Assembly: GCA_009777725.1 (NCBI GenBank) | Contig: WRLG01000005.1 | Coordinates: 1 to 64,000, forward strand | From: Oscillospiraceae bacterium | GTDB lineage: Bacteria; Bacillota; Clostridia; Oscillospirales; Ruminococcaceae | Direction: 5' to 3' | Length of the DNA stretch: 64,000 nt | In this document: one piece after another, positions 1-363 of the stretch | Numbering within the stretch: position 1 is the first letter of the stretch | Layout: every line of letters starts with the position of its first letter | Position numbers and translations under genes: made by a program | The notes under the pieces: generated by a model | Databases searched by the model: none | What the model saw: the letters and a program-made list of their open reading frames with translations, nothing else | What the model was told of the DNA's origin: nothing

Positions 1-63
1 AAGCACCGCACAAACATGCTATAATAAAAATACAAAAAATTAACAAGAAAGGTCTTGATTTTA
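1..63 (+). promoter_or_regulatory. Promoter (-10) and leader of the first AAGC locus
   Basis: A TATAAT box sits at 20-25. Any -35 box would fall at or beyond the left edge of the window. Positions 16-60 are almost identical to 4124-4167, where the same sequence follows a complete TTGACA/TATAAT promoter, so I read this as the same promoter module cut by the edge. An AGAAAGG ribosome site at 46-52 lies upstream of the ATG at 64. Confidence 0.65.
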
Positions 64-147
64 ATGTCCAAATGTGCTACAATTTTAGCAAGCAAGCAAG
101 CAAGCAAGCAAGCAAGCAAGCAAGCAAGCAAGCAAGCAAGCGGGTAA
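64..147 (+). CDS. Short leader ORF containing the AAGC tract
   Basis: ATG at 64 is preceded by AGAAAGG and opens a 27-codon frame: MSKCATILASKQ followed by repeated ASKQ units encoded by the AAGC tract, ending at TAA 145-147. The first 12 codons are the same as those opening at 4172 in the second locus, so leader and tract form a duplicated module. The frame after the tract depends on the number of AAGC units. One extra unit would open the frame to about 265, through the terminator at 190-231. The peptide itself probably has no function of its own; it may be a remnant of a signal-peptide n-region or a translated leader. Its expression is unproven. Confidence 0.5.
   Translation: MSKCATILASKQASKQASKQASKQASG
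87..141 (+). repeat. AAGC tetranucleotide tract (13.75 units)
   Basis: Perfect uninterrupted tandem repeat of AGCA, 55 bp, inside the leader ORF. Because the unit is 4 bp, each gain or loss of a unit changes the downstream reading frame. Uninterrupted tracts of this length are prone to slipped-strand mutation. A second tract of 6.5 units lies at 4195-4220 with the same upstream flank. Confidence 0.95.
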
Positions 148-189
148 CTCCGTTCTTTTGGCGTGGTTTAAATTTTATATAAATAAATG

Positions 190-231
190 GGCAACTACTT
201 TCTGCTTTAAGCGGAGGGTAGTTGCCTTTTT
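190..231 (+). terminator. Strong rho-independent terminator or attenuator
   Basis: GGCAACTAC (190-198) pairs perfectly with GTAGTTGCC (218-226). An inner stem TCTGCT/AGCGGA can stack inside it, and TTTTT follows at 227-231. It lies between the leader ORF with its AAGC tract and the surface-protein gene at 364, so it would stop transcripts from the left-edge promoter unless read through. Confidence 0.85.
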
Positions 232-235
232 GTGT

Positions 236-292
236 GCGGGACGGGCAAGCCCGTCCCCTACAGAATAAAATTCTAACCTATTGCACAGGTGG
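236..292 (+). repeat. Half copy of a dispersed palindromic (MITE-like) element
   Basis: The hairpin GGGACGGGCAAGCCCGTCCC, then CTACAG, and the end TATTGCACAGGTGG match the right half of the complete element at 44534-44667 nearly base for base. It lies between the terminator at 190-231 and the gene at 364. Confidence 0.8.
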
Positions 293-302
293 CAAATTTT
301 TC

Positions 303-328
303 GTAGGGGCGACCGCCTCGGTCGCCCG
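303..328 (+). repeat. GTAGGGG-type hairpin element
   Basis: GTAGGGGCGACC...GGTCGCCCG forms a GC-rich hairpin (GGGCGACC/GGTCGCCC). The lead-in GTAGGGG followed by a short palindrome resembles the elements at 25274, 44557 and 59243, so this is probably another member of the same broad family. It sits about 35 bp upstream of the surface-protein start codon. Confidence 0.55.
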
Positions 329-363
329 AATAAATACAATAAAAAAAACAGGAGGTAACTACC

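Follow-up and report, generated by a model that had tools for sequence, protein, structure and literature searches.

AGCA-repeat leaders with predicted frame-dependent transcription termination upstream of surface-protein genes

The left end of the window, a DNA stretch of 64,000 nucleotides comprising bases 1-64000 of contig C5 in a genome of 2.77 Mb and 49 contigs, probably carries a phase-variable, translation-controlled transcription attenuator. Evidence for this function comes from the parts of the locus and their reading frames, from the recurrence of the arrangement in other genomes, from differences in tract length between relatives, and from a frame-specific lack of stop codons between tract and terminator. 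In the proposed mechanism, RNA transcribed from an upstream promoter, termed P1, would carry a leader, and ribosomes would start at ATG 64 and translate a tract of AGCA units. Slippage by one unit in living cells would change the frame that follows the tract. In the present phase, the ribosome is expected to leave the RNA at 145-147, 41 nt upstream of the hairpin, which would allow the terminator to form and leave the surface gene OFF or weakly expressed. The other two phases would have the ribosome stop about 6 nt before the hairpin or pass through it, so that the terminator would be hindered and the gene would be ON.

The features of the locus are collected in Table 1. A preliminary description of this DNA had reported a leader ORF with 13.75 AGCA units, a strong terminator (190-231), and a surface-protein gene with a ribosome site of its own, and all three parts were recovered. 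The tract is perfect and is preceded by an ATG; its unit number is that of the assembly consensus. The terminator hairpin, which is followed by a T-run, has a folding energy of -28.3 kcal/mol (z -8.05), and none of 200 shuffled sequences was equally stable. The terminator pattern scan is uninformative by itself, with 1 terminator-like site found and 1.2 expected. The surface gene is an intact ORF, and the tract lies outside its reading frame, the gene having its own start at 364 and its own ribosome site. By eye, the hydrophobic N-terminus of its product reads as a signal peptide. The -35 box of P1 is cut off at this locus because base 1 is the contig edge.

Table 1. Predicted features of the AGCA leader locus and of a fused sister gene in the window
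Feature	Position	Strand	Basis or remark
P1 upstream promoter, -10 box TATAAT	20-25	+	Sister copies have TTGACA-17-TATAAT at the same place
Leader ribosome-site-like AAGAAAGG	45-52	+	Read by eye from the sequence; also in sister copies
P2 promoter-like element (TTGATT, 17, TACAAT, with TG before the second box)	55-83	+	Promoter scan
Leader ORF in the present phase (ATG 64-66, 27 codons, TAA 145-147)	64-147	+	Frame analysis
AGCA tract, 13.75 units, zero mismatches	87-141	+	Repeat analysis
Stop used with one more unit	180-182	+	Frame analysis; about 6 nt 5' of the hairpin
Intrinsic terminator hairpin, then T-run	189-227	+	Pattern scan and folding
Stop used with one fewer or two more units	266-268	+	Frame analysis; frame open through the hairpin
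AGGAGG, ribosome site of the surface gene	350-355	+	Read from the sequence
Surface-protein gene, ATG start, LRR_4 repeats and CBM_X2	364-1779	+	Intact ORF, domain search
Fused sister gene	4172-5441	+	Leader and tract (4195-4220, 6.5 units); start-less signal-peptide sequence; LRR_5, CBM_X2

A separate promoter between 231 and 364, which the preliminary description had named as a finding that would refute the attenuator, was not found: on the + strand of 232-363, a consensus scan gave zero promoter-like sites at the scanner's threshold. A comparison of window positions 1-800 with Rfam produced eight weak matches, none reaching its gathering score. Two strong GC-rich inverted repeats (232-345) lie between the terminator and the surface gene, and the 232-363 segment folds at -45.8 kcal/mol (z -3.86). 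The copies on contigs C7, C9, and C22 have similar sequence downstream of their terminators, perhaps a small repeat element.

The AGCA tract is itself open in all frames, and because 4 is not a multiple of three, each unit gained or lost shifts the frame after the tract. As had been proposed, the present frame stops at 145, ahead of the hairpin (TAA at 145-147, 41 nt before it). The preliminary description had further held that one more unit would keep the frame open to about 265. This part of the arithmetic was wrong: one more unit leads to the stop at 180-182, and the stop at 266-268 is reached with one fewer or two more. The attenuator idea itself is retained and even strengthened, backed by comparison and by a likeness to the pil1 locus: on the corrected frames, gaining or losing a single unit would be expected to take the ribosome up to the hairpin or past it.

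In trp-type leader-peptide attenuation, the position of a ribosome on the leader decides whether a terminator forms, and stalling follows amino-acid supply. The window locus would share the dependence on ribosome position, with repeat number, not amino-acid supply, setting the stop. Such a role of repeats is described for the pil1 locus of Streptococcus gallolyticus, where GCAGA repeats in the leader set the position at which the ribosome stops (Danne et al. 2014, PMC3894217). In that study, which also discusses trp-type attenuation, isolates that stop at least 28 nt before the terminator show a mostly low profile, isolates that stop next to or beyond it have a high proportion of high cells, and pil3 has the same design (PMC3894217). 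As in the window, the pil1 and pil3 leader ORFs hold repeats with a unit length not divisible by three, and surface genes lie behind them. The low-expression stop is 39 nt (pil1) or 33 nt (pil3) before the terminator, compared with 41 nt for the window's present stop, and expression is high when the stop falls close to the hairpin or within it (PMC3894217). The three phases of the window locus, at 41 nt, at 6 nt, and past the hairpin, fit pil1-type spacing, in which one phase ends at least 28 nt before the hairpin and the others near or past it. Strains differ in pil1 and pil3 repeat number (PMC3894217), as do two pairs of relatives in our data (L142/L119 and L133/L135).

The systems also differ. 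The unit is GCAGA in S. gallolyticus and AGCA here (PMC3894217). Unlike pil1 and pil3, the AGCA leaders also precede MalT/LuxR and TetR regulators, occur in many genera and in several copies per genome, share a post-tract motif, and have a promoter-like element within the start region of the leader. The match in anatomy and spacing suggests that the window locus may work like pil1, for which the mechanism is proven (PMC3894217), whereas here it is inferred. Searches of open-licence PMC papers brought up this mechanism for S. gallolyticus alone and listed no report for Clostridia.

When the leader DNA was compared with the genomes of 41 relatives, five matched, including the own genome, and besides the own genome the tract was present only in G025. 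The single other genome of the genus that was searched, G001, gave no match to the leader. Across the order, the tract pattern is found in 8 of 394 genomes including the own, and the other seven are spread over five families. Comparison of those seven with the own genome revealed the shared post-tract motif. The pattern AGCAAGCAAGCAAGCN{1,4}TARYTSYGC is found at 34 places in genome_contigs (84,980 species genomes) and at 0 places in viral contigs; the exact leader pattern of the own genome has 0 places in genome_contigs, a collection that may omit this genome. The 34 record titles name Clostridia, Bacillota, or groups therein in 31 cases and just "Bacterium" in 3, and 23 are marked MAG. Some genomes hold several loci (UBA4240 has four places). 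The element is patchy: of 300 genomes in the G332 family, three matched, and two of these were already in the set.

Loci were assembled into a set of 60, with a duplicate (L148) and loci without leader context left out and L152-L154 outside the analyzed set. Leaving out fused genes, C2:20, and L137 (too little downstream sequence) gives 49 terminator-class loci. A terminator after the tract was detected by script at 46 of these, which excludes L089 of the own genome, L121, and L136 (stems by eye, poor T-runs). A co-directional ORF lies within 450 nt at 43 of the 49, or at 42 if one short ORF is discounted. The 46 loci were reduced to 27 representatives by identity (<75% identity across the 60 nt that follow the tract), and in these the terminator starts 30-62 nt 3' of the tract. 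The genes behind the leaders mostly encode secreted proteins, as judged by eye from their signal peptides, or MalT/LuxR or TetR regulators. Among 20 downstream proteins, Pfam matches include leucine-rich repeats, CBM_X2, Big_2, MBG, GLUG, and InlB-type or beta-helix repeats, together with one ubiquitin domain, two cases of MalT-TPR plus LuxR, and one TetR; 3 of the 20 had no match. The ubiquitin domain (Pfam E 1.3e-21) belongs to a secreted-looking protein of a Ruminococcaceae MAG (L118:3-2552, - strand).

Within the own genome, a search for sister leaders gave 46 matches, 21 of which span at least 80 bases, and a tract-start pattern occurs at 17 places, one of them without a leader. Copy number is probably underestimated by these counts, because contigs end in or near leaders or tracts. 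Contigs C2, C5, C28, and C36 and the end of C16 terminate in this way. The copies are of two kinds, in which the tract either is followed by a terminator or runs into signal-peptide sequence that lacks a start. Of the eight terminator-type copies with 3.75 units or more, seven are followed by a co-directional gene that has its own start; of the five with 2.75 units, none is followed by a convincing one (one short ORF was judged spurious).

The sister gene at 4172 is of the fused kind. It is out of frame in the present assembly; in phase, the tract precedes the signal peptide in a single ORF. Just upstream of its leader lies a PDDEXK_2-family gene (3245-4096) with its own P1-like promoter (3180-3223). 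Fused genes of this type resemble the coding-tract contingency genes autB of Neisseria (AAGC, PMC5118866) and lav of Haemophilus (GCAA, PMC9022572), whose units are rotations of the same tetranucleotide and whose frame is changed by slippage. The locus at 1-363 is unlike autB and lav in that its tract is outside the frame of the surface gene; that gene is preceded by a terminator and has a start of its own.

At C16:67133, the tract is joined to codons corresponding to "NPRIIPIL" in the 364-type gene, and the 4172 type is therefore likely to derive from the 364-type arrangement. The 4172-type gene looks like a derived fusion, and the C16:67133 sequence suggests that fused genes arose by loss of the terminator, ribosome site, and start. 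The preliminary description had offered the opposite as an alternative, namely that 1-363 is a functionless, decayed version of the 4172 arrangement. Relic-like copies do exist in the own genome (the five with 2.75 units and one on C8 with 20.75, all without a convincing co-directional gene downstream of the terminator), but the gene at 364 is intact, the terminator layout is found far outside this genome (the 34 places noted above), and the C16:67133 junction points to the 4172 type as the likely derivative. We consider decay of a fused gene at 1-363 extremely improbable.

Seven fused genes in the own genome have a complete leader and tract (the 4195-4220 locus, L083, L085:4034, L087, L088:1347, L090, and L092). 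All seven are out of frame, and in all seven the frame would be restored by two more or one fewer units. If phases are random, such a common phase is unlikely to be a chance event; selection for OFF is one reading. Use of UAG as a sense codon was also considered as an explanation and was rejected: TAG terminates 8 of the 30 mechanical ORFs that are 250 aa or longer and so looks like an ordinary stop. In another genome, G092, the tract of L109 is fused inside an ORF that reads, by eye, as a membrane acyltransferase. This fusion is in frame from the leader ATG and would represent a fused copy that is ON.

The distribution of stop codons in the 27 representatives fits translation of the leader as far as the terminator in two of the three phases. 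In 27 of 27, one frame closes at the tract end with TAA or TAG, a count that is not independent evidence because the search pattern imposes this stop for genome_contigs loci. In 25 of 27, both other frames remain open to a point no more than 12 nt short of the hairpin or past it, whereas shuffling the spacer gives 17.5 +- 2.0 (p 0.001; p values here are optimistic because representatives share ancestry). At a stricter identity limit, the same holds for 22 of 23 representatives. The excess is weaker when motif and spacer are shuffled together: at least one frame runs into the hairpin in 25 of 27 versus 22.9 (p 0.16), and at least two do so in 14 versus 9.7 (p 0.05).

Counts of stops from +10 to the hairpin separate the frames. 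The closed frame contains 23, versus 15.1 in shuffles, and the other two frames together contain 14, versus 28.8 +- 4.0, with 0 of 1000 shuffles as low. Stops are undepleted in a control stretch between terminator and gene (56 versus 55.8), and on the antisense strand a reduction is not clear (43 versus 46.4, p 0.20). This pattern is the one expected of a translated leader with phase-controlled termination. Of 22 representatives, 19 have an ATG 15-27 nt 5' of the tract, compared with 6.2 +- 2.1 and at most 14 in shuffles. L123, L136, and L145 are without an ATG at the usual place, and each has some ATG or TTG that is open into the tract. A fixed frame from ATG to tract held in the first cases, failed in the larger set, and was discarded.

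The main problem for the attenuator reading is P2. The upstream promoter, P1, reaches a score of 12 of 12 in several sister copies; in 15 of 25 representatives it scores above shuffles at p < 0.05. P2 (TTGACA-17-TAyAAT) is located 31-35 nt 5' of the tract in 22 of 25 representatives and likewise beats shuffles at p < 0.05 in 22 of 25. A transcript started from P2 would begin at the tract and omit the leader ATG. This possibility creates a serious rival, in which RNA begins at the tract, the leader is untranslated, unit number tunes the strength of the promoter or the 5' untranslated region, and the terminator sets a low basal level. Moraxella uspA2 and Haemophilus hmw are examples of such tuning by repeat number. 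Besides the fixed place and the score of P2, its presence in L123, L136, and L145 despite the absent usual ATG favors such a rheostat. However, tuning through P2 leaves unexplained both the frame-specific stop depletion that ends at the terminator and the ATG found before the tract in most representatives. Moreover, in the fused genes of the own genome, the start is joined to the signal peptide only by translation through the tract. On balance, we judge the rheostat unlikely and favor attenuation of a translated leader.

Less likely still is control by RNA structure, whereby the start region of the leader pairs with the post-tract segment, the tract forms the loop, and the phase of translation is secondary. 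The pairing beats all 200 shuffles in L097, L104, and L105, and a locus's own arms pair better than swapped arms (-17.2 versus -15.6, permutation p 0.015). However, it is unremarkable in most own-genome copies, and for the window copy, 147 of 200 shuffles are at least as good. This explanation therefore seems very improbable.

Repeat number varies between close relatives, as observed in two pairs of loci other than the window locus. L142 and L119 have flanks that are 99-100% identical and tracts of 22.25 and 6.25 units, and L133 and L135 have flanks that are 97-98% identical and tracts of 26.75 and 21.75 units. When stops lying 20 nt or more ahead of the hairpin are taken as predicted OFF, the 22 loci outside the own genome comprise 9 OFF, 5 near the hairpin, and 8 into or past it. 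The corresponding numbers for 10 loci in the own genome are 6, 2, and 2.

A broader proposal, which we advance tentatively and with more doubt than confidence, is that these leaders act in gut Clostridia as a modular, stochastic switch. The same cassette, consisting of a promoter pair, an AGCA leader, a closing stop, and a terminator, would stand upstream of surface-protein genes in some cases and of MalT/LuxR or TetR regulator genes in others. Slippage in a single tract could then switch an entire regulon, and output might be graded across the three phases. In this proposal, P2 may act as a sigma-dependent pause giving the first ribosome time to catch up, or may be the source of a short tract-led RNA.

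If the attenuator reading is true, the element would be a recurrent switch of gut Clostridia, through which surface proteins would be varied without DNA inversion and whose predicted ON and OFF states could be read from sequence. The regulators behind some copies would then mean phase variation of larger programmes.
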